A stretch of DNA of 64,000 nt from Saccharococcus thermophilus (GCF_011761475.1 NZ_JAASRS010000001.1:372001-436000); one strand, 5' to 3'; positions 27,369-43,046 are shown, counted from the stretch's first letter. Program-made: numbers and translations. The notes: generated from the sequence alone by a model not told the origin.

Positions 27369-28301
27369 TTACGACGTGGTTTTCAGCTCCAAATGTTCTT
27401 TTAATTTATTCGAAATGGCGAGCCGCTCCTTCTCCGGAACAAGCAAGTAGTAAATGCCATTAATTTTCGTCCCCTGTCCGGTAATATGCAGCTGCTCGAT
27501 GTGCTGGCGGGCGTCTTTGTAATTCGCCTGAATCTCTTTCATCTCGTCAAACGTTAAGTTTGTTTTAATATTTTTCCCAATCGCCGCTAACACATCGCTA
27601 TAATTAGCGAGCGACGAAAAGCTTGCTCCTTTTTCGATGATCGCTTGAATAATTTGCTTCTGCCGATCCTGACGGCCAAAATCCCCGCGCGGGTCTTCTT
27701 TGCGCATGCGCGAATATTTGAGCGCTTTGTCGCCATCTAGCGTAATTTTTCCTTTCGGGAAGGTCGTCCCCTCATACGTAAACGCAAACGGGTTGTCCAC
27801 CGTCACTCCGCCGACCGCATTGACAATGTCGCGGAAGCTTTCCATATTGACCTTAATATAATAATCAATCGGAATATCCAAAAAATGTTCGACGGTCGCC
27901 ATCGTCATCTCCACCCCGCCAAACGCATAGGAGTGGTTGATTTTATCTTTCGTTCCTTTGCCAACAATTTCCGTTCTTGTGTCGCGTGGAACGCTGACCA
28001 TTTCTATGGATTTTTTATTCGGATTGACCGTCATCACAATTAATGAATCGGCGCGGCCGCGATCTCCTTTCCGCTCATCCACCCCGATGAGCAAAATTGA
28101 AATCGGCGTCTTCTTCTCAAACGATACCTCATCATTTCGCTTCTCCGATTTCCAGTTCACATCTTCATGCATTTGATTCAATGTCTGTTTGACGTTGTGA
28201 TACACTGAATAGGCGAATGCTCCCGTACCAATGAGAAGTACGGCGACAATCCCGCCGATCCAGCGCAGCCATTTTTTCTTTTTTCGACGTTTTGCTCTCA
28301 T
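27369..28301 (-). CDS. LytR-CpsA-Psr (LCP) family ligase, TagU-like
   Basis: Membrane enzyme that attaches teichoic acid or capsule polymer to peptidoglycan. A basic start RAKRRKKKKW is followed by one membrane helix, then the LCP domain with ILLIGVDERKGDRGRADSLI, VSVPRDTRTEI, DKINHSYAFGG and YSRMRKEDPRGDFGRQDRQ, which hold the Asp and Arg residues that bind the polyprenyl pyrophosphate. I chose ATG 28301 after AAAGGAAGG. 310 aa. Its place next to the Wzz stub suggests a capsule role. Confidence 0.92.
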   Translation of the reverse strand: MRAKRRKKKKWLRWIGGIVAVLLIGTGAFAYSVYHNVKQTLNQMHEDVNWKSEKRNDEVSFEKKTPISILLIGVDERKGDRGRADSLIVMTVNPNKKSIEMVSVPRDTRTEIVGKGTKDKINHSYAFGGVEMTMATVEHFLDIPIDYYIKVNMESFRDIVNAVGGVTVDNPFAFTYEGTTFPKGKITLDGDKALKYSRMRKEDPRGDFGRQDRQKQIIQAIIEKGASFSSLANYSDVLAAIGKNIKTNLTFDEMKEIQANYKDARQHIEQLHITGQGTKINGIYYLLVPEKERLAISNKLKEHLELKTTS

Positions 28302-28309
28302 GTGTAACC

Positions 28310-28540
28310 TTCCTTTTAGTATCAAATTTGCATGCAACTATTAAGATTATAGAGTGTTTTTTTTTGCTATACAACTAGAAGAGATACAATAATTAGTAAT
28401 TTTTTATATAGTAACCATAATTTTACTAAAAAACATAAAAAGATATTCCTAATTATACAAAATGCACTAATGATAGTATCGCTTTTTATGTTAACATAAT
28501 TTAGTTAGATCGAATAACAAGGAGGAGCGGGGCTGATCGT
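28310..28540. other. AT-rich intergenic region
   Basis: About 230 bp of very AT-rich DNA upstream of the LCP gene. It should hold the LCP promoter on the minus strand. Near its right end GGAGGAGCGG precedes an ATG at 28541 that opens a frame of only 12 codons through the GGCACCTGTCAC motif. No gene seen. Confidence 0.5.
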
Positions 28541-28543
28541 ATG

Positions 28544-28561
28544 GGCACCTGTCACTTGTCG
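28544..28561 (+). repeat. GGCACCTGTCACTTGTCG motif, copy 2 of 8
   Basis: Matches the GGTGCCTGTCACTTGTC consensus with small changes. The galE 3' fragment begins about 15 bp downstream. Confidence 0.75.
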
Positions 28562-28575
28562 AAAAAAAGCTCTTT

Positions 28576-28812
28576 ATAACCTCGGCAACGGCTTAGGCTA
28601 TTCCGTTAAAGAAGTGATGGAAACATGTGGAAAAGTCATCGACCGCAAAGCTGTCATTGAATCCACCGACCGCCGCCCGGGTGCCCCGGCGCGCCTTGTC
28701 GCCTCCTCGGAGAAGATTTGATAAGGAACTGGACTGGAAAGCGGAATATGCGCTTGAAGATATTATCTTTAATGCATGGAAGCGGCATAGTGGAAATGTG
28801 AAGGAAATACAG
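28576..28812 (+). pseudogene. galE 3'-end remnant, copy 1
   Basis: Translation gives YNLGNGLGYSVKEVME and, after a frameshift near 28715, DKELDWKAEYALEDIIFNAWKRH, the C-terminal ~75 residues of UDP-glucose 4-epimerase. The catalytic N-terminal three quarters are absent. A hairpin (AGACTCCTGCTGA with TCAGCGGGAGGCT) follows at about 28811-28849. Two other remnants at 33.2 and 37.1 kb begin at almost the same codon. Nonfunctional. Confidence 0.75.
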
Positions 28813-28864
28813 AGACTCCTGCTGAAGGAGTGTTGTCAGCGGGAGGCTGAATTGCCCGTCTTCA

Positions 28865-29875
28865 TCAATCAATCAGTGTTAAAATCCAATCTTTTAAGTC
28901 AATAATACGTAAATGTTTTGGGGACGAATCTGTACCAGTTACAATCATCGGCACTAGTGAATCTTGTTTATGAAGTCCCCCATGGCTTGCTCATCCAACA
29001 TGAGTGGGAGAGCCTTCACCGATAAATTCAAATCCTGGTTTAGCACTTGCGACAAGATAATTTCCTCGATGAGAAGTAAGCGAGCTGTACAATCGGGCCA
29101 GCGCATCCGGATATTCATCATAAAAAATCTTATTGTTCTTTACCGTAAGATTCAAAACTCCTACATCTCCTGCTAGATCCCACGATTGTTCATACTCATC
29201 CACCAATGGCCCATTCGGTTGAAAAATGAGTCTTCCCGGCCGAACTCCAGATAGGACGTGCACGGATTCTTTTTCCATCCAAGCAATGACATCCACTCTG
29301 TCGTCCTTTTGCAACGTTTTCGCGATATCCAGAAGTGGCGCACGCTCAGGATTTAATGTATAAATAAAGGCCATTCGTTCATTCATCGCAAGCACCACTT
29401 CATCCCTATCTTTCACCCCATCTTTTAATTTCTTGATTTGATAAGAACGAAGGGATTCTCTTAAATCAATTAAGGCTTTGTTCCGATCAGAGTCAATGGG
29501 AGCTTGGCCGTTGTCTCCCATGATAATCCAATAATTGTCCTTTAAAGCGTCCTCCCAAGAATCGTAGCAACCCAATATGTTTTGCAGCTGTTGGTCTACT
29601 TTGCGGATTCCCTTTATATCCATCGGGCCATTTTTATGGACGATTTTGTCCATATCAGGAAAATAAACAATGGTAAACGAAGGTAGAGAATTGGTTTCAA
29701 TAAGGTATTTTAATTCTTGGGCAGAAAATCGATCATTAAACCTAAATTTTTGCCAGAAATGCCCGTTTCGTTTCAAAGGACTGAGTTTCGAAAAGGATCC
29801 ATATGTAAACAGTCGGCTTCCTTTTGTTTTCGACTCCTTATTCCAAGAAGTGAAAAATGTCAGCAGTCTTGGCAA
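28865..29875 (-). pseudogene. Type I phosphodiesterase/nucleotide pyrophosphatase family remnant
   Basis: The open part (28991-29875) has family features: SFTIVYFPDMDKIVHKNGP, NYWIIMGDNGQAPID and a long conserved tail. An in-frame TGA at 28991 interrupts THVG-ASHGGLHKQDSLVPMI, where the metal-binding His is; the frame then continues to 28865. The N-terminal part with the first metal-site residues and nucleophile is missing, with a stop just upstream of 29875. Both ends are damaged, so it is a pseudogene. Family call from motif pattern only. Confidence 0.6.
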
Positions 29876-29939
29876 TTATAATAACGTGTTTCTTGTTCGC
29901 ATATGTTGACACGATTTGATCCATCCTTTACCTTCTATA

Positions 29940-30242
29940 TCGTGAAACATTTTCATCATTTATGTTATCCAATATTTAGGTAAAGGAAACAAGCCATACG
30001 GTGATCCAATGATCAATACATCATGATGATGTGGATACCGCCGGATCCAGTGAATGAAAAGAGGAATCACCACCCCGACAGAAATTCCAGCCACATTCGC
30101 TGCCGCATTCTGTCGTTCTTTCCGGGGCTAATCGCTGCCTGTATTCTTCCACGAGACCGGTAGCCATCAAAGGGTACCAAATTGTCGCAATCCGCCGAAG
30201 CCCATCAGCAAACGGTGGCATAAGACATAACGCTATTGCCAA
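29940..30242 (-). pseudogene. Degenerate membrane-protein remnant, unrecognised
   Basis: On the minus strand ALCLMPPFADGLRRIATIWY and GLVEEYRQRLAPE continue, after one or two frameshifts, as AGISVGVVIPLFIHWIRRYP and PYGLFPLPKYWIT. This looks like the C-terminal end of a hydrophobic protein, but I cannot name its family. Confidence 0.35.
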
Positions 30243-30295
30243 AAAACGCGCTGAAACGATAGAAAAAGAAATTTATGCGTGAGAGGAGTTCGGGC

Positions 30296-31216
30296 ATGTC
30301 GAAACTGTTCGTTTACATATCCCTCGTCTTGATTATGATGATCTGGGGATTCAACGTGACTGCCATCAAGATTTTAGTCGAACATTTTTCGCCGGTGATG
30401 TTAACGTCGTTTCGGATTTTTACAGCAGGGATTGTTGTGATTCTGATTTTGCTATTCATGGGGCAGTTGCGGAAATTGACTTGGAAGGAAGTTATGTATA
30501 TTGGCATAGCCGCTTTGTTTAGCGTCGTTGCCCATCACCTTTTTCTTGCGCTTGGATTAACCAAAACGACAGCGTCCAACGCTGGCTTAATTTTAGGTCT
30601 TGTTCCGCTGGTGACATCGGTGTTAGCGGTCATCTTTTTGGGCGATCGGTTTACAGTGTTTCGGTTTGTCGGGATTTTCCTCGGGTTTACCGGCGTGGTG
30701 TTTGTTGTGTTAAACGGCGAAAGCGGCATTCACCATGTGTCCATTGGCGATTTTTATGTATTTCTGGCCGTATTATCTCAAGGAATCAGTTTTATCATGA
30801 TAAAAAAGGCAACGATCGATGCGCGTGTGATGACAGGTTGGATGTTGTTGTTTGGGTCTTTGCTTTTATTTTTCATTAGTTTATGGATGGAACCGAACGG
30901 CTTATCCAGCTTGGCCAACGGTACGCCATCTCTATGGATAATCTTCCTTGCTTCTGCTGTATTTGCCACTGCGCTGGGTCATATGTTTTACAACCAAGCG
31001 ATTCAGCATATTGGTGCGGTGGAATCGGCGATTTTCATTAATTTGAATCCTTTGTTTTCTTTGCTGGGAGCTTATTTATTTCTCGGAGAATCTATTTCTT
31101 TTACACAAATGGTGGGATTTGTTTTGATTGTGATTGGCGTCGTCTTAGGCAGCGGTGTATTGGATGAAATCGGGACGCTTATCCATCGCTCGAAAATGAT
31201 GGGGAAAAAGTGCTAA
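30296..31216 (+). CDS. EamA/DMT family transporter
   Basis: Ten predicted membrane helices in two EamA repeats: IWGFNVTAIKILVEHFSP with the first repeat and FLASAVFATALGHMFYNQAI with NLNPLFSLLGAYLFLGE in the second. Substrate is not readable from sequence; the family exports amino acids, metabolites or drugs. ATG 30296 follows GAGAGGAG. 306 aa. No partner gene; it ends in its own terminator. Confidence 0.88.
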   Translation: MSKLFVYISLVLIMMIWGFNVTAIKILVEHFSPVMLTSFRIFTAGIVVILILLFMGQLRKLTWKEVMYIGIAALFSVVAHHLFLALGLTKTTASNAGLILGLVPLVTSVLAVIFLGDRFTVFRFVGIFLGFTGVVFVVLNGESGIHHVSIGDFYVFLAVLSQGISFIMIKKATIDARVMTGWMLLFGSLLLFFISLWMEPNGLSSLANGTPSLWIIFLASAVFATALGHMFYNQAIQHIGAVESAIFINLNPLFSLLGAYLFLGESISFTQMVGFVLIVIGVVLGSGVLDEIGTLIHRSKMMGKKC

Positions 31217-31246
31217 AAAACGGAGCTGGTAGGGGCTCCGTTTTTT
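31215..31246 (+). terminator. Terminator of the EamA transporter gene
   Basis: AAAAAACGGAGC pairs with GCTCCGTTTTTT. Confidence 0.92.
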
Positions 31247-31794
31247 ATTGTTCTTCTCCTTTGGGATTGTGTCGGTTCCTGTTGCGTTGCGGACAGTATA
31301 AAATCGGTTAAGCAGGAGGAATCAGGGCTAAACGGCTCTGCTTCCTTTTCTTTTTTCAATTGTCTCAGGCCCCAAAGAAGTTGTCAGGAGAAGCACTTGA
31401 CAGCCCTGCGGAATTCCGAGAATGGAGAAGGAGAAAATATAGTCCCTCGTTTACTCGTTTTTTAGCCGGTTTGTGCATATTAGGCGGGTATTTTCTATCG
31501 AGCGTTTGGCGGTTTCCTTTTATAAGGAAGGATGCATATGTGTGATGGGGCAATTGCCGGCTGAATCTTCACCCATTCAGGAAAACGATGATGATACACA
31601 AATGCGTGAAAATTTGTTAAAATTTTATGTATATTCTGTAAAATTAAAACCGCTGTTTTTCGGAAGTCGGAGAGGTGTTCTTTCATAAAAATTTACATCA
31701 ACGAAACAAAATGACTAAATAAGTAAAGTAATCTATATATTAGAATAAGCGGTTTGCCGACCGTTCCATAACTGAAAGAATGGGGGAGAGGGCA
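31247..31794. other. Intergenic region without a supported gene
   Basis: About 550 bp. Short frames exist (for example 31360-31545 with PSFTRFLAGLCILGGYFLSS) but lack ribosome sites and known motifs. A hairpin around 31312-31350 with a T-rich tail may be an old terminator. The right end holds the ribosome site of the MFS gene. Confidence 0.4.
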
Positions 31795-33129
31795 GTGGAG
31801 AAGTTAGAAGATGCCTTGCCTTCGTATGAAACAAAGAGGCGGCCGGGCTGGAAACTGTATGTTTCTTTGCCGATTTTATCGTGGGCGTTGTATGATTTTG
31901 CGAATACGATTTTTTCCTCGAATGTGAATACGATTTTTTTCCCGCTTTATGTTTCGGAAGCGGTGGGAAAAAGCGAGAGCTTGAACCAGATAGCCAGTAC
32001 ATTTATTTCTTATGCGAATGCGTTAGCCTCTTTCTTTTTAGTTGTATTTTCTCCTTTATACGGCACATGGATTGACCGGACTGGGAGAAGAAAGAAATGG
32101 CTTGGGATCTTTACGGCTCTTTCGGTTGCGGCGACTTTGCTTATGGGCGTTGCCGGATATTCGAATCCTGCGAATTTCATTTTTGGATTGCCGGCATCTT
32201 TTATCATCACCGTGCTTTTATTTGTCGCGGCAAAGTTTTTTTATCATTCGAGCCTCGTGTTTTACGATTCCATGATTTCTATTTTGGGGAATAAACAGGA
32301 AATTCCGCTCATCTCCGGTTTTGGTGTTGCCGTCGGATATGTCGGAACGCTTGTCGGGCTTGCCGTGTATCCGTTTGTTGGCGAAAAGGATTACTACCGG
32401 GCTTTTATTCCAAGCGCCCTTTTGTTTCTCCTCTTTTCTTTACCGCTTTTTTTCTTTGTCAAAGAAGAAGCCGCTCTGCTAAAGCGAAAGGCCGGATTTT
32501 TGGCGGGCTATCGGGATATTTATGCGACGTTGAAAGAAATGAAAAAGTATCAACACATTTTTACTTTCATGATTGCTTATTTCTTTTTAAATGATGCGGT
32601 GGCGACGACAATCGCTATCATGTCCGTTTATGCCAAGGCGATTGCCGGGTTTACGGCGGGAGAATTTATCCTTTTATATTTAGTTTCCACCGTTTCTAGC
32701 ATTATCGGTTCCTTTCTTTTTGGCTATATTACAAGAAGCAAAGGGGCAAAAAAAGCGGTTTTGTATGTCGGCGTCATGATGTGCATCGCACTGGCGATAG
32801 GGTCGCTTGCTTTTTCCAAGCTTTCTTTTTGGATCGCTGGAAGCTTGTTCGGCGTTAGTTTAGGAGCGATGTGGGTTACTTCGAGAACATATATTGTCGA
32901 GCTTTCGCCGAAAGATAAGCAAGGGCAATTTTTCGGGCTGTTCGCTTTTTCCGGAAAAGTGTCGGCCATCATCGGCCCGGGGATTTACGGAAGCATTACC
33001 CTTCTTCTTCATTCGTATGGTAACATTGCTAATCGGTTGGCGATGGGATCGCTGCTAGTGATGGTGCTCCTTGGCATTTTCTTTTTGAGGAAGGTAGAGC
33101 CGCAGGCGCTTGCCGAGACGGAAAGCTGA
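31795..33129 (+). CDS. MFS transporter of the UMF1/Atg22-like family
   Basis: Twelve membrane segments. The start region SWALYDFANTIFSSNVNTIFFP is the hallmark of this family (vacuole effluxer Atg22-like), with FSPLYGTWIDRTGRRKKW as the MFS loop 2-3 motif. Substrate unknown; the yeast namesake exports amino acids. I prefer GTG 31795 because GGGGGAG lies 6-7 nt upstream; ATG 31780 is in frame but poorly placed. About 444 aa. Confidence 0.85.
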   Translation: MEKLEDALPSYETKRRPGWKLYVSLPILSWALYDFANTIFSSNVNTIFFPLYVSEAVGKSESLNQIASTFISYANALASFFLVVFSPLYGTWIDRTGRRKKWLGIFTALSVAATLLMGVAGYSNPANFIFGLPASFIITVLLFVAAKFFYHSSLVFYDSMISILGNKQEIPLISGFGVAVGYVGTLVGLAVYPFVGEKDYYRAFIPSALLFLLFSLPLFFFVKEEAALLKRKAGFLAGYRDIYATLKEMKKYQHIFTFMIAYFFLNDAVATTIAIMSVYAKAIAGFTAGEFILLYLVSTVSSIIGSFLFGYITRSKGAKKAVLYVGVMMCIALAIGSLAFSKLSFWIAGSLFGVSLGAMWVTSRTYIVELSPKDKQGQFFGLFAFSGKVSAIIGPGIYGSITLLLHSYGNIANRLAMGSLLVMVLLGIFFLRKVEPQALAETES

Positions 33130-33143
33130 CGGGAGGTTTTATG

Positions 33144-33163
33144 GGTGCTTGTCCCTTGGCAGC
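33144..33163 (+). repeat. Degenerate GGTGCTTGTCCCTTGGCAGC motif, copy 3 of 8
   Basis: Differs from the consensus at a few positions, but occupies the same place relative to a galE remnant as copies 2 and 6. It lies just after the MFS gene. Confidence 0.55.
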
Positions 33164-33187
33164 CGGTCGACAGCTAAATCGATACCT

Positions 33188-33415
33188 GTTTACAATCTTG
33201 GCAACGGCTTAGGCTATTCCGTCAACGAATTCATTGAAACAGATGAAAAAGTAATCGGTCGCAAAGCGTCATTGAATACACCGACCGCCGCCCGGACGAC
33301 CCGGCGCCCCTTGTCGCCTCATCGCAAAAAATTTATGAAGAACTCGCATAAAAAGCGGAATATTCTTTGGAACAAATCGTTGAAAGCGCGTGGAAATGGC
33401 ATAGTCGAAATGTGA
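33188..33415 (+). pseudogene. galE 3'-end remnant, copy 2
   Basis: YNLGNGLGYSVNEFIET, then TDRRPDDPAPLVASSQKIYEEL and AEYSLEQIVESAWKWH across frameshifts and a stop at about 33348. It starts at the same GalE residue as copies 1 and 3. It shares runs such as GGCAACGGCTTAGGCTATTC with copy 1 but is clearly diverged. Confidence 0.75.
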
Positions 33416-33420
33416 AGAAA

Positions 33421-33458
33421 ACAGCCTCCTGCTGAATGGCGTTTAGCGGGAGGCTGTT
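33421..33458 (+). terminator. Hairpin after galE remnant 2
   Basis: ACAGCCTCCTGCT pairs with AGCGGGAGGCTGT (one wobble pair). The T-tract is weak. Remnant 1 is followed by a related hairpin, so the stem was probably part of the original galE 3' end. Confidence 0.65.
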
Positions 33459-33470
33459 CAAATATGTTTT

Positions 33471-33574
33471 CTTAACTTCTTTCTTTAATTGATTCAATTA
33501 GTTTTGATATAGATGATAACCAGCGATAGTTATTAATTTGTTCCATAATTGTGTCATTATCTATTTCTTCATTT
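33471..33574 (-). repeat. Block A, left copy (3' end of an unknown minus-strand gene)
   Basis: 104 bp, about 90% identical to 42251-42354. On the minus strand both can be read as the end of a protein, here IMEQINNYRWLSSISKLIES followed by IKERS and a stop. The gene body is absent in both places. The left copy ends at a GGTGCCTGTCACC motif. Confidence 0.7.
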
Positions 33575-33578
33575 TTTC

Positions 33579-33591
33579 GGTGCCTGTCACC
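33579..33591 (+). repeat. GGTGCCTGTCACC motif, copy 4 of 8
   Basis: It lies exactly between block A and the left edge of the duplicated SEC-C segment. The other SEC-C segment at 47.15 kb reads CGGTG-CGATTTAT, lacking the 12 bases CCTGTCACCATC that are present here. Confidence 0.8.
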
Positions 33592-35210
33592 ATCCGATTT
33601 ATGGGACATGGGATTGGATTGTATCATTGGTGCAAAAAGGAAAAGCCAAGCCGCGATGTTCGTGCCCACTCTCATTTTTGCTTGAGGGCAAACAGGAGCG
33701 AGACCGCAAGAAATCGATACGGTGTGACTTCATTTTCTATGCTATAGAACAATTGGTGTTTATGGTACAATTAAGAAAATAACGGCATGGCCGAAATTGT
33801 AAAGAAGGTGAAACTATTGGCAACGATTTCGCGGAATGCTCCGTGCCGTGCGGGAGCGGCAGAAAGTATAAGCAGTGCTGCGGCAAGGAAAAAACCGTTT
33901 CGCTGCAGTCGGTTGTGGAACGGGAGTTAGGGGAATGTATGCGCGATGTATTGGCGTATGCAGCGGACCGTTATGAAGATGAGATCGTTCCGTTTCTCGA
34001 AGAGCGGCAGACGGAAGGGCTACCGGAAACGCTGGCGATCGGAATCGAACTGTTTGTCACCAACTGGGCGATTTTTTGCCTACCGCTAGAAAGCGAAAAC
34101 ACAACGATTTTCGCCTCTTATTTGCAAGACCGGCGCAGTGCGCGCTGGCGTCCGTCGGTGCGGACGCAAATTGAGTCGTGGCAAGGCGCGGTGCCGTCGT
34201 TCGACGAACTCATCGGCCGCGATGGGGAACGGAATTTGTTTGTACGGGATGTGCTGACCGGGGAAGAAAAGCAGGTCCATATTTTCGAGGCCGATGAAGT
34301 GCCGGAGATGGAAGAAGGGGATATCCTTATCGGTTTATTAGTGCCATATGGACAAGCGTATACGTATTTCACGACGCTGCTTGTGTTTCCGCACGCTGGT
34401 GCCGGACGGTTGATTGCCACACTGCGCCAGGAGCAGCACGGGGAAACCGATGGCCGCGCGTTTTTGCGCCACGCTTTTCCAGAAGCGATGGATCTTGCGG
34501 TGAGCCAGCTTATTTGGGAGTTCGTGCGGCAAATGGAATGGGAAAAGCCGGAGTACGAGGCGGTGATGCAGGAGCTAAGGAGCCGTTTCCCGAATGACCA
34601 GGAGGAGGCGCTAGTGCGGGCGCATGTCATCTGGCGCGCGTATTGCAATAAGGAGCATCCGCGTATCGGCCATCCAGCAGTATATGCGGCCACCCTCCAT
34701 TATTTCGTCTGCGCCATAGCGGGCGGGGAAGAGTTGGAGGAAGAGGAGGTCGCCTTCTTATACGAAGTGCCGCTTGACAAGATGTCCGCCAGAGTGGACG
34801 ATCTGATGCTCTTTTCTTTCGACAGCATGATCGATGATGACGACGAATGGGACGATAAAGATTTGGATTTTCTTGATGATGACGACTGGGAGCTGGTTGA
34901 TGACGAGGATGATTCTGCTGATGATTATTGGGACCTTTCCGATGAGGACGGGTGGCTCTTTGATGACGATATGGAAGAGGACGAAATCGACTTATTGTTT
35001 GACGAGCTGATGGCGAAAATGGAGGAGCTGCTCGAGAGGGAAGACTGGGATGAGAAAAAGGTGATGAAATTAACCGAAAACCTCGTGGCCGAATGGGTCG
35101 ATGCAGGAGAGATCGATGAAGCTGATGCCGAGCTAGTCTGTGAGGCGATGCAAGCGCTGGCGCTCGAGGTGATACGGACGCAAAACAAAGGCTAGCCGCG
35201 GCCGAAATCG
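33592..35210 (+). repeat. Block C, left copy (duplicated SEC-C locus)
   Basis: About 1.6 kb that is roughly 97-98% identical to 47155-48780, including some 200 bp of upstream DNA with the same ribosome site. Copies of the CCTGTCAC motif stand at both ends of this copy (33579 and 35225) and at neither end of the other. Confidence 0.9.
33817..35195 (+). pseudogene. SEC-C motif protein, frameshifted copy
   Basis: The TTG start at 33817 with GAAGGTGA upstream is intact, but one C is missing in the codons for PCPCGSG (here CCGTGCCGTG, in the other copy CCGTGCCCGTG). This shifts the frame about nine codons in. The rest (33843-35195) stays open, and a GTG at 33843 could give MPCGSGRKYKQCC, but it has no ribosome site and loses the first zinc-binding Cys. 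The body is the same acidic protein as at 47.4 kb. It may be inactive, or a shortened product may be made; a read error cannot be excluded. Confidence 0.7.
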
Positions 35211-35224
35211 AAAGCGCTGTGCTC

Positions 35225-35243
35225 GGTACCTGTCACTTGTCGG
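35225..35243 (+). repeat. GGTACCTGTCACTTGTCGG motif, copy 5 of 8
   Basis: It lies at the right edge of the SEC-C duplication and at the left edge of a truncated UDG-like gene; both neighbours are broken at this point. Confidence 0.8.
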
Positions 35244-35545
35244 CATATGTGACGGACTTTGCTAGAGTAGCTAATCATAGAGGGATCCGGGATATGAAAA
35301 AGTGCAAGGAACTGTTAATGGACGAAATACATTTATTAAATCCCCAACTGGTCATATTGGTCGGTTCAGAGCCAAGAGATGCATTTAGCCACGAACTTCG
35401 GTTGCATCCGGAAAAGTACATGAGTGTTCCGTTTTCGTTAAAAGGAGTTCCGAAAAAGACACAAATAGAGGGTCCGCTTCTCTATAAGCAACTGCGTGAA
35501 CGTCTTTATCATTTGTTAGACAAGGAAAAGGGTCAGGTTCTGTGA
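35244..35545 (+). pseudogene. C-terminal fragment of a uracil-DNA-glycosylase-like protein
   Basis: Open from the motif onward. AYVTDFARVANHRGIRD and KKCKELLMDEIHLLNPQLVI followed by LVGSEP resemble the middle and C-terminal part of UDG-superfamily proteins (the step from iTdfvK to El..l.P.lvv.lG). The N-terminal half with the catalytic loop is absent, cut at the motif. Family call is tentative. Confidence 0.4.
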
Positions 35546-35961
35546 AGCGCCGAGAATGGTCGATAGATCTCTCGGTGCTGTAGCCTTGCTGCCGTTGCGC
35601 TGTTAAGCTGAAAAGCTGGATGAGCAATATCAAGATATGGATTGTTTTGGCCATCATCACCCGCTTCATCATTTTTGGTTGGATAGGCAGCCGTTAGGAT
35701 GTAATACAAAACCGCTCGTCCCGTATAAGGTTTTACATATCGATCACCCGGCAATACATGTGGCGTTTCGCCAAGTACCGTATGATTCGTGTTCTTTTCT
35801 GCTGGCTTTTGAGCAGAAAAAGGTGCCGCGTGCGAGAATTCATTTTGCGGGTGTTTTATGGCCATTAGCATGCCGAATAGGGGCAAACAAGTTATCAGCG
35901 CGTCCATTGTTAGCAGCAAAAGTACAAGGGGCATCATGATAAAATCCCGGCTACTACTCAT
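35533..35961 (-). CDS. Small putative membrane protein, unrecognised
   Basis: 142 codons on the minus strand: an N-terminal hydrophobic segment (PLVLLLLTMDALITCLPLFG, residues about 11-30), then an extracellular-looking part with LPGDRYVKPYTGRAVLYYIL. I know no family. No strong ribosome site is visible upstream, and it overlaps the UDG-like fragment by a few bases at its 3' end, so it may be a remnant. Confidence 0.35.
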   Translation of the reverse strand: MSSSRDFIMMPLVLLLLTMDALITCLPLFGMLMAIKHPQNEFSHAAPFSAQKPAEKNTNHTVLGETPHVLPGDRYVKPYTGRAVLYYILTAAYPTKNDEAGDDGQNNPYLDIAHPAFQLNSATAARLQHREIYRPFSALHRT

Positions 35962-36027
35962 TTCCTCAGCGCCAAACAGCCTCGCCCAATCGAATGACGG
36001 AGAGAGCCTGTCGCCGCTGGCCGATGA

Positions 36028-36058
36028 AAAGAGCCGCCCCTGTTCGTTACGGCTCTTT
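36028..36058 (-). terminator. Terminator of the Rpn-type gene
   Basis: AAAGAGCCG pairs with CGGCTCTTT; on the minus strand a run of Ts follows. It lies about 30 bp past the stop codon at 36087. Confidence 0.8.
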
Positions 36059-36086
36059 GTTGGGGATGGTCGTGTCGCGCGACAGA

Positions 36087-36947
36087 TTATTTGCCCATTT
36101 CTTTCGCTAAGTCTGCCACTTCAGCAACGGTTAATCCGGTCCGTTTCGCAATCTCATGAATAGGCAGGACATCTAGTAAGTTTTTTGCGATTTCAATTGC
36201 CTTCTGTTTTTCTGCTTCTTTCACTGCTTCTTCTTTTTCCTGTTCGAAAAGCCGAATGACCTTTGTCATTTTGATCCACTCCTTTACTTTTTTGACATAT
36301 TCTTCGTCAATAAACTTATCGGTAGCGGTTAAGATGCCGGCGATGACGTGTAGTTGCGTTGGTTCGTCACGAATTTCTTTTGCGAGCTCGATCGTTTTTT
36401 CAATCATCGTTTGCCGGTCGAAACGACTATTCATAAGTGGAACGAGAATGAGTTTCATCGTTTCTTCCGCTGTTAACGGTTCGTTGTTGAGAATTTTTTC
36501 TTCGATGGCATGGAAAATCGCATCTCCGTTGTATTCGCAAAGCAATACGGCTTTCGAAGAAATCAACACATCTCCAGCGTGCAATTGTTCGTGAGCGCTT
36601 GTGACTTCGCTCGTATAAATGACAACGATATGAATAGGCCTGATTTGTTTCTGCTGTCTATAGTATGTGTGCAAAATTCGGTAAGCATAATCGAGGTACT
36701 TTAAATGGTTTTCAATAAATCGTTGGTTGCTTTCGTATTCAAGGAGAAGGATCGAATCGTCTTCGAGAAGAAACAAGGTGTCTGAACGCTTTTCATCCGC
36801 TCGTACAGCTGGATATTCATTAGGCAACAGTGTCTTAATTTTCGGCAGTCCATGTAGTCCGTACACATCGAGCGCTTGATTTTGGTACAATTCGCTTAAC
36901 GACTTAAACAAAACGTCTTTCGCATGATACGATATACCACCTGCCAT
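36087..36947 (-). CDS. Rpn/PD-(D/E)XK nuclease family putative transposase
   Basis: 286 aa. The N-terminal half has the nuclease-like core: KRSDTLFLLEDDSILLLEYES (Asp and Glu of the PD-(D/E)XK fold), then a helical region and a Lys/Glu-rich C-terminal coiled coil with PIHEIAKRTGLTVAEVADLA. Rpn proteins promote RecA-independent recombination in E. coli; for this Bacillaceae branch the role is unknown. Start ATG 36947. Its first ~34 bp and upstream DNA are duplicated at 42.36-42.51 kb. Confidence 0.7.
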   Translation of the reverse strand: MAGGISYHAKDVLFKSLSELYQNQALDVYGLHGLPKIKTLLPNEYPAVRADEKRSDTLFLLEDDSILLLEYESNQRFIENHLKYLDYAYRILHTYYRQQKQIRPIHIVVIYTSEVTSAHEQLHAGDVLISSKAVLLCEYNGDAIFHAIEEKILNNEPLTAEETMKLILVPLMNSRFDRQTMIEKTIELAKEIRDEPTQLHVIAGILTATDKFIDEEYVKKVKEWIKMTKVIRLFEQEKEEAVKEAEKQKAIEIAKNLLDVLPIHEIAKRTGLTVAEVADLAKEMGK

Positions 36948-37071
36948 TTTTCTATCCTCACTTGTTTTTACTATTATTATACTCCCCCGTCTTAGTGCGT
37001 GTCATCTCTGTCATTTGAATATGAAAATGATGTGCAGCCTTTAGGTTTGGTGCCTGTCACTTGCCAGCCTG
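36914..37071. repeat. Block B, left copy (start and upstream of the Rpn-type gene)
   Basis: About 158 bp, roughly 97% identical to 42355-42510 apart from a 3-bp gap. It runs from inside the Rpn-type gene start to the GGTGCCTGTCACTTG motif at 37049 and stops just after it. Confidence 0.85.
37049..37069 (+). repeat. GGTGCCTGTCACTTGCCAGC motif, copy 6 of 8
   Basis: Joins block B to galE remnant 3, which begins about 10 bp further right. Confidence 0.8.
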
Positions 37072-37077
37072 AAATTT

Positions 37078-37262
37078 TACTATCTTGGAAGCGGTTTAGA
37101 CTGTTCCGTGAAAGAAGTCATTGAAACATATGAAGCAAAGCGTCATTGACACACTGACCGCCGCTGGGCGCCCCGGCGCGGCCTGTCGCATCATAAAAAA
37201 ATTTACGAAGAACTTTGGTTGGAAAGCGGAATATTCGTTGGAACCAATCATCGAAAGCGTAT
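37078..37262 (+). pseudogene. galE 3'-end remnant, copy 3
   Basis: YYLGSGLDCSVKEVIET, RPGAACRIIKKIYEEL-like and WKAEYSLEPIIESV are readable with frameshifts and a missing segment near 37130-37160. The remnant ends abruptly at about 37262 and runs into unrelated DNA, so here the galE end and its hairpin are lost. Confidence 0.7.
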
Positions 37263-38118: not shown

Positions 38119-38565
38119 ATGACGAACAGTCCTGGCATGTTAAATCAGCAAGAGAAAAAAACGATAATGATTGCAGGCATTGCCACCTTATTTTTTTTGG
38201 CCACCATTTTGTTTCGTGATGAACTGTATTTTGTCGCCCAAGCAAAACAATATTTATCCATACACACCATCTTGGAATTCCTCAGCATCACCGTCTCGTT
38301 GTCCATCGCGATTCAAGGGTGGATGATTTTTCCGCAACATTTATCTAGATATCGCTTATGGTATTCGGGTGTATTTCTCATAGTCGGCATCATCGATTTA
38401 TTGCACACGCTTTCATATAAAGGCATGCCTGGCTTAATCATTACTGAAAGTTCTGCGCAAAAAGCTACATGGTTTTGGATTGCCGCTAGATTAACGCAAG
38501 CGTGCATGCTGTTTCTAATCATATTTTTTCCAGATAAACAAGTACAAAGCAGACAAAAAACATCC
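38119..38565 (+). pseudogene. MASE3-PAS-GGDEF-EAL protein, 5' part (split by IS110)
   Basis: Membrane-sensor half of a c-di-GMP enzyme. ATG 38119 follows GGGGAGGGGAG. Hydrophobic helices and DLLHTLSYKGMPGLI with ATWFWIAARLTQACMLFLI are typical of the MASE3 sensor. At about residue 149 (FPDKQVQSRQKTS) the frame enters the IS110 element. The remaining part resumes at 40016. Confidence 0.85.
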
Positions 38566-38819
38566 ATGAGTAAATTTTACTCCCCACCCAGGCATGAAAA
38601 TCCATCTCTCCTTCCCATAATGAATGATGAACGCAAACAGTTTGAAAAGACGTGCTTTTTAATGGTGGTTCGACCCTGTACAAAAAACTGTTTGAGTCCA
38701 TTTGGTGTTCCACCCATTGTGAGCCCTTTTCCTGTGAAAAGGTGACTACGAACAGAAAAATGCCTAACGTACAAGTGGACTCACTGTTTGCGAATTCATC
38801 AATGGAAGGAGTCAGGATC
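38566..38819 (+). ncRNA. Candidate bridge RNA region of the IS110 element
   Basis: In the IS110 group the long left noncoding end encodes a structured bridge RNA that pairs with target and donor DNA. Here that region holds a perfect 10-bp stem (CAAACAGTTT 38634-38643 with AAACTGTTTG 38685-38694), an overlapping partner pair (AATGGTGG 38661 with CCACCCATT 38710) and a small hairpin CTTTTC/GAAAAG near 38730. Boundaries and guide loops are not determined. Confidence 0.5.
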
Positions 38820-39956
38820 ATGGATGTGCTTTATCATCGTTGCGCAGGGTTAGATATCCATGCCAAAACGATTGTCGTTTGTGCGCTTTGGGGAGAAGAA
38901 GACCACATTCAAAAGGAGATCGAGACGTTTTCGACGTTCACCAAAGACTTGTTTCGTCTCCTGAAATGGCTCGAGGATCGAAAAATCACTCATCTAGCGA
39001 TGGAGAGCACGGGAGTTTACTGGAAACCGGTCTTTAACATTTTAGAAGACTACTTTGACATTACCTTGGCCAACGCTCAGCGTATCAAGAACGTCCCAGG
39101 GAGAAAAACGGATGTATCCGATGCGGAATGGATCGCTAAATTATTGCGTTATGGACTGATTGAAAAGAGTTTTGTGCCACCCGCGCCAATTCGGGAATTG
39201 CGGGACTTGACCCGTTTGCGCAAAAAGTGGGTGGGGCAATTGACCGCGGAAAAAAACCGAATCCATAAAGTATTAGAGTGTTCCAATATCAAGCTGGGTA
39301 CGGTGATTTCCGACATCTTCGGAGTATCGGGCCGAAAACTCTTGAACCGTTTAATGGAGCAGGGGTATATCGAAGAAGCCGACATCGACGCTTGCCTTCA
39401 CGGGAGAATGAAAGGGAAAAAGCAACAAATTCAGGAATCGCTCTTTGGGACATTAACCGAACATGAGTTATTCATGATTCGCCAATCGTGGAAGCATATC
39501 GAGTATTTGGAAAGCTTGATTCAGGAGATGGACCAACGCATCGACCATCTCTTACAGCCGTATCAACAGGAAATGGATCTTCTGATGACGATCCCTGGAG
39601 TGAAAAAGGAAACCGCCGCCGTCATCATCGCCGAAATCGGAGTGGATATGGGACAGTTCCCGACGCCGCAGCGCCTCGCTTCTTGGGCTGGAGTGGCCCC
39701 GGGAAATCACGAAAGCGCTGGAAAACGCAAAAGTACACGAACGGTAAAGGGCAATCCACATATTAAATCCGCGTTATGCGAGGCGGCATGGGCGTTATCC
39801 CGATGCAGGAATCAACCGTTGGCGGCGAAATTTTGGTCATTGGCGGCTCGCCGGGGAAAGAAAAAAGCACTCGTTGCGATCGCGCACCGAATGCTTGTCA
39901 CCATTTACTGCATGCTTTCCCGAAAAGAACCGTTTCGAGGACCACAAGTAAGTTAG
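38820..39956 (+). CDS. IS110 family transposase (DEDD recombinase)
   Basis: 378 aa. The N-terminal RuvC-like DEDD domain shows AGLDIHAKTIVVCAL, the Glu in AMESTGVYWKPVFNIL and Asps in GRKTDVSDAEWIAKLL. The C-terminal Transposase_20 domain has IPGVKKETAAVIIAEIG and WAGVAPGNHESAGKRKS with the catalytic serine. ATG 38820 is chosen by AAGGAG about 11 nt upstream; the frame is open from 38652. It appears intact. Confidence 0.93.
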   Translation: MDVLYHRCAGLDIHAKTIVVCALWGEEDHIQKEIETFSTFTKDLFRLLKWLEDRKITHLAMESTGVYWKPVFNILEDYFDITLANAQRIKNVPGRKTDVSDAEWIAKLLRYGLIEKSFVPPAPIRELRDLTRLRKKWVGQLTAEKNRIHKVLECSNIKLGTVISDIFGVSGRKLLNRLMEQGYIEEADIDACLHGRMKGKKQQIQESLFGTLTEHELFMIRQSWKHIEYLESLIQEMDQRIDHLLQPYQQEMDLLMTIPGVKKETAAVIIAEIGVDMGQFPTPQRLASWAGVAPGNHESAGKRKSTRTVKGNPHIKSALCEAAWALSRCRNQPLAAKFWSLAARRGKKKALVAIAHRMLVTIYCMLSRKEPFRGPQVS

Positions 39957-40015
39957 TATAGCCAAAATGAATACAGAATATACGAGATGCCTAAAAATAA
40001 GGCACCTCTGCTTTC

Positions 40016-42190
40016 CTGTTGTCTTTTTTGGCCATTTGTAGTGTACCCAAACTGATCACAGGATATACAGAGTTGACCGGGTTTTATGGATTTTCACAGA
40101 AAAAGACGGTGTTTATTTTTTCTCTTCTCTATGTATTTGTTATTTCTTATATTATCGTTCGCTATGAACAAAAACTTCCGCTTCTCGTTATCGATGGGAA
40201 AGGCACAACGAATTTAAAAAATTTCTTAGAATATATTGTTATCCTTTTTTATGCTTTCACCGCTTTTATGACGTTGCTTTCTTACAAAAAACAGCCCAAA
40301 AAATCCTATCTTGACCTCATATTGGCGTTTGTATTTTTAGTTTTAAGCGAACTTTTGTTTACATTGTATAAAAACGTGTACGACGTACAAAATTTTTTAG
40401 GTCATTTGTACAAAGGAATCAGTTACATTTATTTTATGAAAGGAATATACATTGCTACGATTAAAGAACCATACGATGCCCGGAAAAAGGCAGAGGAAGA
40501 ATTGAAAAAACGAGAGAAACATCTAAAAACGATCACCTCGTCATTAGGTGAGGGGGTCATCGTATTAGACAAAGACAAAAAAATAACTTTTATGAACCAA
40601 GAAGCGGAACGTTTACTCGGTTATCAAAAAAACGAATTGTTAGGAAAAGCATTGTTCCAAAAAATTCATTGCGGCAATGAAAATCAATGCGCTTCTCTTT
40701 GTGAATGCCCGATCTATCAGACGATGGAATTAAAAAAAGCATATCGCGTAGAAGAGGATTTTTGTGTTCGAAAAGATGGGACGCTGTTGCCAATTGCTTA
40801 TGTCTCTACGCCGATGATCGACGATAACGGAGAAATAATCGGCTCTGTCGTTGTCTTTCGTGATATTACTGAGCGAAAAAAATACAATGAAAAAATTAAG
40901 TATCAAGCCTACCATGATGCATTAACTGATTTGCCAAATCGCCGCTACTTGATTGAGAAGCTAAAGAACGAACTGAAAAGGGCAGAAAAACATAACAGCC
41001 AAATCGCTATACTGTACTTGGATTTAGACAACTTTAAAAACATTAATGATTCATTTGGCCATGTCATGGGAGATTTATTATTAAAAAACGTGGCGCAACG
41101 CTTGACAATGATTCATCCTGATTGCTTTATCGCCCGTTTGGGAGGAGACGAATTTGCCGTTCTTTTATCCGGAAATGATCTCAATGTCGAGGAAATAGCC
41201 TGCAAAACCATTCAAATATTAACCCAGCCGATTAAGCTTGAAAATAAAGAAGTCTTTATTACGACAAGCATAGGTATCAGCGTGTATCCAAAAGACGGGG
41301 ATGACGAAATGACCTTAATCCAACACGCCGATATGGCAATGTATGATGCGAAAAAGAAAGGAAAAAACCAATTTTCATTCTATACGACCAAACTAGAACA
41401 ACAGAGAACAAGAAAATCAAAAATTGAACAGCTGCTTCGTACCGCATTAGAAAACGAAGAGATTTCTTTATGTTATCAGCCGATCGTTGACACGGTTTCC
41501 AAACGGATTATCGGCTTAGAAGCTTTCGTTCGTTGGCACCATCCAGAGATCGGGGAGATTCCGGCCAATGAATTTATCGCGGTTGCAGAAGAAAACGGTC
41601 TCATTGTATCGCTTGGCAAGCATATATTAATAACCGCTCTTCAAGATTTAAAACATTTGCACGAAATCGGATTTGATCATTTGTACGTCAGCGTGAACCT
41701 TTCCTTACGGCAATTACGGCATCATGACTTTGCCGCGTTGATCAGTCAATTATTACAAAAGAATAAATTACAAGCAAACTATTTAGAACTAGAAATTACG
41801 GAAAATATTGCCCTATGCGACGAAAAACACGTCATCCATAGCATTCAGAAATTAAAAGATATAGGTGTCCGCATCGCGATTGATGATTTTGGAATCGGCC
41901 GTTCCTCCATCGGATATTTACGAACCTTTTCCGTTGACACATTGAAAATTGATAAATCATTCATTTTCGATGTAACAACCAATCCAAATACCGCTCATTT
42001 GACGTCTGCGCTGATCACGTTCGCGCATAACTTAAACTTGCAAGTGGTTGCCGAGGGAGTAGAAACAGCAGAACAGTTAGGCTTCTTAGAGCAGCACCAT
42101 TGCGATAAAATCCAAGGCTATTTATTTAGCCCTCCTGTTTCGTTTGAACAACTCGTTTCGCTTCTTCATAACAGTTCATCACGATGTTGA
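40016..42190 (+). pseudogene. MASE3-PAS-GGDEF-EAL protein, 3' part (split by IS110)
   Basis: Continuation of the gene at 38119. Order: last MASE3 helices, PAS domain (ITSSLGEGVIVLDKDKKITF, residues about 175-280 of this part), GGDEF (HDALTDLPNRRYLIE, RLGGDEFAVLL intact) and EAL. The EAL signature reads GLEAFVRWHHPE, so Leu is Phe, while the later DDFGIGRSSIGYL, LKIDKSFI and VVAEGVETAEQ are kept. Without its start and ribosome site it is unlikely to be made. If the element left cleanly, the protein would be about 875 aa. Confidence 0.85.
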
Positions 42191-42246: not shown

Positions 42247-42250
42247 ATAT

Positions 42251-42354
42251 CTTAACTTCTTTCTTTAATTGATTCAATCAGTTTTGATATAGAGGATAAC
42301 CAACGACAGTTATTAATGTGGTCCATAATCGTGTCATTATCTATTTTTTCATTT
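42251..42354 (-). repeat. Block A, right copy
   Basis: About 90% identical to 33471-33574. It joins block B with no spacer at 42354/42355. Confidence 0.75.
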
Positions 42355-42510
42355 CGTCTTTCGCATGATACGATATACCACCTGCCATTTTTCCATCCTC
42401 ACTTGTTTTTACTATTATATTCCCCCGTCTTAGTGCGTGTCATCTCTGTCATTTGAATATGAAAATGATGTGCAGCCTTTAGGTTTGGTGCCTGTCACTT
42501 GTCAGCCAGA
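42355..42510. repeat. Block B, right copy
   Basis: Near-identical to 36914-37071, covering the first codons of the Rpn-type gene, its upstream DNA and the motif. Here the rest of the Rpn-type gene is missing, so this is a fragment. Confidence 0.85.
42487..42507 (+). repeat. GGTGCCTGTCACTTGTCAGC motif, copy 7 of 8
   Basis: Last part of block B; homology to the left copy ends a few bases after the motif. The DUF488 gene follows. Confidence 0.8.
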
Positions 42511-43025: not shown

Positions 43026-43033
43026 ATGGGCTC

Positions 43034-43046
43034 GGCGCCTGTCACC
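43034..43046 (+). repeat. GGCGCCTGTCACC motif, copy 8 of 8
   Basis: Lies between the DUF488 hairpin and the ribosome site of the macro-domain gene, about 28 bp before its start. Confidence 0.7.

Follow-up and report, generated by a model that had tools for sequence, protein, structure and literature searches.

The closest described relatives of the repeat analyzed here are the REP and REPIN repeats and the tyrosine transposases associated with them, the RAYTs or TnpA_REP proteins (PMC2817692, PMC3116915, PMC6006769, PMC8266576). The role of RAYTs and REPs is an open question in the field. Like these repeats, the sequence described here is short, palindromic in a relative that carries it at high copy number, mostly intergenic and situated beside RAYT genes. 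Unlike them, it has few copies in the bacterial family considered here (0-7 exact copies per genome), its left hairpin arm is often degenerate, and the copies that we studied are found at joints where target DNA is missing. On the basis of a limited check of the literature, we know of no report of REPs at joints where target DNA has been lost. Limited searches also returned four papers with the motif string, all of them unrelated, no occurrence of "REP-associated tyrosine transposase" together with Geobacillus and, among the ten matches listed, nothing relevant on REP-driven rearrangements.

With the IS200/IS605 elements, the system shares a Y1 transposase, subterminal hairpins and units with directly oriented end sequences. 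It differs from them in that these REPs do not coincide with the borders of any TnpA/TnpB element, and in that the target is lost, with 746 bp missing around comM in one genome (G064) and 590 bp of rpn in another (G031). To our knowledge, insertion of the IS200/IS605 type is not known to remove hundreds of base pairs of target, and a RAYT, if it is the agent here, therefore gives a different outcome. MITE-like elements of two related genera (g3 and g8), which consist of the REP, ∼58 bp and a hairpin, likewise have the REP as their left end and recur with different left flanks, but the copies in the DNA studied here are without body and hairpin and have gene remnants directly after the REP. Integron cassettes and attC arrays offer a further parallel, in that a short site recurs in one orientation between blocks of genes, although here the genes are cut mid-way and several block borders have no REP. 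No integron integrase was found among the subset of ORFs scanned in the region, and an integron-like cassette model was dropped because the genes are truncated at the site.

The window, by which we mean the whole 64,000-nt stretch analyzed (G000:C1:372001-436000), is part of a 3.15-Mb genome in which tblastn with a consensus galE tail as the query finds three decayed galE tails, all of them inside the window. The intact galE lies 1.15 Mb from the tails and is only 56% identical, and the same genome-wide search finds more distant relatives besides. A sequence-only reading of this DNA had placed a copy of a motif to the left of each galE remnant, and the analysis bears this out, with all three tails located 0-25 bp to the right of GGTGCCTGTCAC-NNN-YCGA. 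All three also correspond to the C-terminal ∼75 residues only and have diverged from each other (mutual identity 70-78%), as that reading had stated, and they carry frameshifts and stops. Its description of a start at the same codon holds approximately, within about five codons. By nucleotide alignment, the motif is probably followed without a gap by tail 1 from galE nt ∼730, giving the joint GTCGAAAAAAAGC-TCTTTATAACC, nearly the same joint being found in G018 (L198 320-), and tails 2 and 3 start at nt ∼737-740.

The three REP-tail arrangements all lie on the plus strand. REP copy 1 (GTATGGGCACCTGTCACTTGTCG, 28537-28562), located by motif search and joint alignment, connects the LytR side with galE tail 1 (28563-28805), which runs from nt ∼730 to the stop and is followed by a galE terminator hairpin (28806-28856). 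REP copy 2 (33137-33164), at the right end of an MFS-transporter block and orthologous in G001, G008 and G018, is separated by ∼22 bp of unassigned DNA from galE tail 2 (33186-33420, from nt ∼737-740), behind which lies a second terminator hairpin (33421-33457). REP copy 3 (37042-37069) is the right end of an Rpn-upstream block and is followed directly by galE tail 3 (37070-37262, from nt ∼735-740). The hairpins that had been noted 3′ of copies 1 and 2 align with the terminators of intact galE genes in relatives, copy 1 having been aligned with the DNA downstream of intact galE in G010 and others. An intact galE carrying the motif at the border codon had also been envisaged, but no intact galE gene contains it, the best match having 4 mismatches.

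The motif copies before the tails, at 28544, 33144 and 37049, have 2, 2 and 0 mismatches, respectively. With up to 3 mismatches allowed, the window contains 7 matches against 0.88 expected, a number reached in none of 100 shuffles, and the exact 12-mer of the motif occurs three times in the whole genome, each time within the same 9 kb of the window. A motif with at most 2 mismatches lay within 60 nt to the left of a random point in just 74 of 28,800 trials. An Rfam search of window positions 27-46 kb gave no match.

From its sequence, the folding of the form found in G052 and its linkage to RAYT genes, we assign the motif to a RAYT-associated family of ∼26-nt REP-type repeats. Its full form in relatives is roughly (TTGTATG or GGGTTT)-GGTGCCTGTCAC-NNN-YCGA, about 26 nt in length. 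In G052, a relative at the level of the order, there are 58 exact copies compared with 0 for a reversed control, some of them in inverted pairs, and in the loci examined we counted 123 distinct copies with at most 1 mismatch, a few of which are chance matches in genes; the copies are short, repeated and mostly intergenic. The G052 form folds as a perfect hairpin (z -4.5) and the GGGTTT form folds more weakly (z -1.8); the copies in the window fold poorly, with no hairpin for copy 1. The RAYT genes match Pfam Y1_Tnp and NCBIfam NF047646, most matches being below the NCBIfam cut-off. The motif lies ∼0.1-0.6 kb upstream of RAYT at five loci (L122, L123, L133, L134 and L140), in degenerate form at two of them, and the RAYT stop codon in G063 directly adjoins a REP that continues into galE at nt 930; this REP/galE joint is also present in G011, G018 and G061. 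RAYT is present in several relatives; the genome that holds the window gave no RAYT match, and its REP copies are therefore probably relics.

In G000, G012, G019, G020 and G031, the exact copies of the motif are confined to a single strand of the genome or contig (7/7 in G020). In G063, a comM/yifB - RAYT pair stands between two directly oriented REPs (L194, minus strand), with partial versions in G011 (L197), G061 (L193), G064 (L195) and G035 (L100), and this pair is possibly a composite element.

Two scars in relatives define the REP edges almost to the nucleotide. In G064 (L195), the DNA matches that of G063 across a REP and into comM for its first ∼95 coding nt, and then gives way to a 679-bp REP-Rpn-REP unit, whose left end lies 8 nt ahead of one REP and whose right end is the right edge of another; comM resumes after the unit, and the 746 bp around comM are missing. 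The 29 nt of the unit that end just to the right of its first REP are 100% identical to G032 and the next 652 bp are 99.4% identical to the same genome, and exactly 529 bp of G032, starting at the right edge of the REP, lie between these two stretches and are lacking in the unit. One of the rpn copies in G031 (L160) is made up of the first codons, a 25-bp REP and the 3′ third of the gene; a second copy on that contig and G014 both have the 590 bp that it lacks. Comparison with homologs was the basis for judging the direction of each event. Together these scars indicate, at the level of sequence, that REP edges are endpoints both of insertion with loss and of deletion, and a clean REP insertion without target loss was not seen in a small search among the homologous loci examined. 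The REP/comM joint (comM nt 925) is common to G011 and G064, whose left flanks differ.

The same edges stand out when homology is followed across many copies. At 76 REP copies, homology on the left ends at the REP in 22 cases, homology on the right starts there in 43 and homology spans the REP in 8, compared with null values for random points of 5.5, 6.4 and 30.6, and without the galE-linked copies the numbers are 16, 34 and 9 against 4.4, 5.2 and 27, in both cases for loci selected by galE or motif and for related genomes that are not independent of each other. Pairs of REP copies with a common flank almost always have one flank only in common, and many of the pairs with only the right flank in common are the REP-hairpin elements of g3 and g8. 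In one pair (L088/L158), conservation at 90% extends to both flanks, and the motif match there is probably due to chance. Nor is galE special among the genes cut at a REP, because in relatives the REP right edge also directly abuts the 3′ parts of rmlB (from residue ∼320 of ∼360), of YifB/ComM (from residue ∼272 of 499), of rpn, of a DegT aminotransferase gene and of a UDG-like gene, the latter two being weak matches. An apparent truncation of mqo at a REP in G011 was dropped, as the frame reads on upstream.

Alignment of the window with its relatives gives a mosaic in which several block borders lie at REP edges. The MFS block extends to the right edge of its REP and no further, and the Rpn-upstream block also has its REP at its end; left flank and REP copy 3 are shared with 42403-42507 of the window and with G006, and the right flanks differ. 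The region 42250-42507 (plus strand, as are the other REP-linked features given here) comprises a decayed Rpn remnant, the upstream region and a REP, and G006 has ∼110 bp of other DNA there. The UDG-like and macro-domain blocks begin right after a REP. The REP at 35218-35243 joins the 3′ flank of a SEC-C gene to the 3′ part of a truncated UDG-like gene (35244-35545, a weak family match), which follows directly as the tails do in the galE arrangements; G001 has this left flank with no REP, and the UDG-like gene reaches further upstream in G015 than in the window. A further REP lies to the left of the SEC-C gene block (33572-33597), another borders the macro-domain gene block on its left (43028-43046), and a decayed REP after the EamA gene terminator (31264-31290) aligns with the REP after EamA in G001, G008 and G036. 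Several block borders are without a REP, for example the left border of EamA at 30272.

At galE itself, the REP right edge in relatives abuts the gene at nt 565, ∼730, 743, 762 and 930, and in several loci only 0-3 nt separate the REP from the start of galE homology, which differs in galE position between these loci. Roughly half of the galE remnants in relatives lack a REP at the border, for instance at nt 242, 446 and 805. In a tree of 30 galE 3′ ends, tail 1 groups with G001_a, G018_b and G061 (100/95) and tails 2 and 3 fall elsewhere; a single clade for the three window tails is rejected (AU p = 0.027). The joint of REP with galE nt 762 is found in six loci with mostly different left flanks (G001/G064, G015, G017, G018 and G061). 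One clade is rejected for all six of these tails (p = 5e-6) and not for four of them (p = 0.08), so both a preferred joint and limited spread of one joint are possible explanations of the recurrence.

The right flank of tail 1 is conserved in four relatives (G001, G008, G018 and G061), in which the left borders differ (galE nt 745, 726, 736 and 762). This combination points to repeated truncation in place, including that of tail 1. In five genomes the flank continues past the terminator and reaches the same gene, which is synteny rather than the end of a unit. In G001, a polysaccharide region lies between LytR and phosphodiesterase anchors common to G001 and the window, and contains NeuB, phosphoglucomutase, UDP-galactopyranose mutase, a flippase, a glycosyltransferase and several galE genes. 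In the window, the LytR/TagU-type gene (27369-28337, minus strand), which is the left anchor of the island, has REP and galE tail 1 directly after it. The other two tails adjoin the MFS-REP block (tail 2) and the Rpn-REP block (tail 3).

A second recurrent galE fragment has its left border at nt ∼446, after a different sequence (..GGTGAATATTAA..) with no REP, in seven genomes (L072, L079, L193, L194, L195, L197 and L198). At L070, L077 and L078, from three genera, a common long left flank is joined to galE nt ∼738, again with no REP.

We consider it probable that the REP marks rearrangement joints in a hypervariable surface-polysaccharide island and that the galE tails are leftovers of cut genes. 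Polysaccharide clusters would come and go in the island, with the REP marking cut-and-rejoin joints across the bacterial family. REPs may have been inserted with loss of target DNA, either singly or as the two ends of a REP-cargo-REP unit, or alternatively a deletion may have started at the REP right edge, each event leaving the left flank, the REP and the 3′ remainder of the cut gene. Tail 1 would then be the remainder of a galE at the end of a lost polysaccharide cluster, and tails 2 and 3 those of other galE lineages now at the MFS-REP and Rpn-REP blocks, so that the galE tail would be the damaged target and not the moving part. No empty site or ancestor was found for the three window joints, and the formation of tails 2 and 3 by the same REP-joint route is presumed. 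As for the agent, the joints may be the work of a RAYT that cut at the right edge of the REP, a proposal to which we give slightly less than an even chance; the enzyme would cut that edge and join it elsewhere on the same strand, deleting the DNA between, or would insert REP-ended DNA with target loss. The broader proposal is that a RAYT active now or until recently inserts REP-ended units with target loss and also makes deletions anchored at the REP right edge, has preferred sites, galE nt 762 among them, and is thereby the driving force behind surface-polysaccharide island turnover throughout the family; we regard it as rather doubtful.

The sequence-only reading had offered two accounts, and the one that fits is recombination that repeatedly used the motif, which extends beyond galE to rmlB, comM, rpn, the DegT aminotransferase gene and the UDG-like gene. 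The other, in which REP, galE tail and terminator form a mobile unit with the REP as its left end and the terminator hairpin as its right, we regard as distinctly unlikely: the likeness to the REP-hairpin elements of related genera, the mostly different left flanks of the nt 762 joint, for four of whose tails one clade is not rejected, and the many REP copies with only a right flank in common would all suit it, but the clade is rejected both for the window tails and for the six nt 762 tails, the galE borders vary between loci and the right flank of tail 1 continues past the terminator. For the window, spread of such a unit is thus unsupported. What that reading had itself named as evidence against a unit is present at least in part, as remnants at scattered galE positions (nt 565 to 930, as well as 242, 446 and 805) and, for tail 1, with its right flank shared among five genomes, as decay of a full galE in place.

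Joints of this kind could also arise if REPs served as short homologous sites and flanks were swapped by recombination or slippage with no part for RAYT. Cases in which the same left flank and REP meet different right flanks (MFS, EamA, Rpn and G032/G064), or the same REP and right joint meet different left flanks (comM nt 925), are what such exchange would give. However, about 26 bp is short for RecA-dependent exchange, the G031 scar has just one REP at its deletion, and exchange of flanks gives no account of the first joints between REPs and gene interiors, which makes this explanation unlikely. Very improbable, in our judgment, is the view that galE copies were lost by ordinary deletion and that REPs were later inserted in the debris with no causal link. 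The frameshifts and stops in the window tails and the galE remnants that have no REP (G001_a, G018_b, G014_a, G011_b and G036) accord with it, but the placement of galE homology within 0-3 nt of REP edges, the exact scars in G064 and G031 and the excess of breaks at REPs far above chance argue against it.

Rearrangement at REP edges remains our preferred reading. The natural scars, resolved nearly to the nucleotide, show insertions and deletions with REP edges at their joints in several genera, in some cases next to RAYT genes, so that a direct test can be made of whether target loss and gene truncation are caused by RAYT and REP. Such joints would offer a mechanism by which surface-polysaccharide islands lose and swap clusters. 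They also serve as a warning that short 3′ gene remnants beside a repeat are not necessarily copies of one mobile unit.

Rpn genes are repeatedly found beside REPs in relatives. The window has an Rpn-family (putative recombination-promoting nuclease) gene at 36087-36947, with a weak TIGR01784 match below the cut-off, and a second, decayed and composite Rpn remnant at 42250-42480. Between the two lies a MASE3-PAS-GGDEF-EAL gene (38119-42190) that is interrupted by an IS110-type transposase gene (38652-39956), and G006 has the DNA of both sides with no insert.
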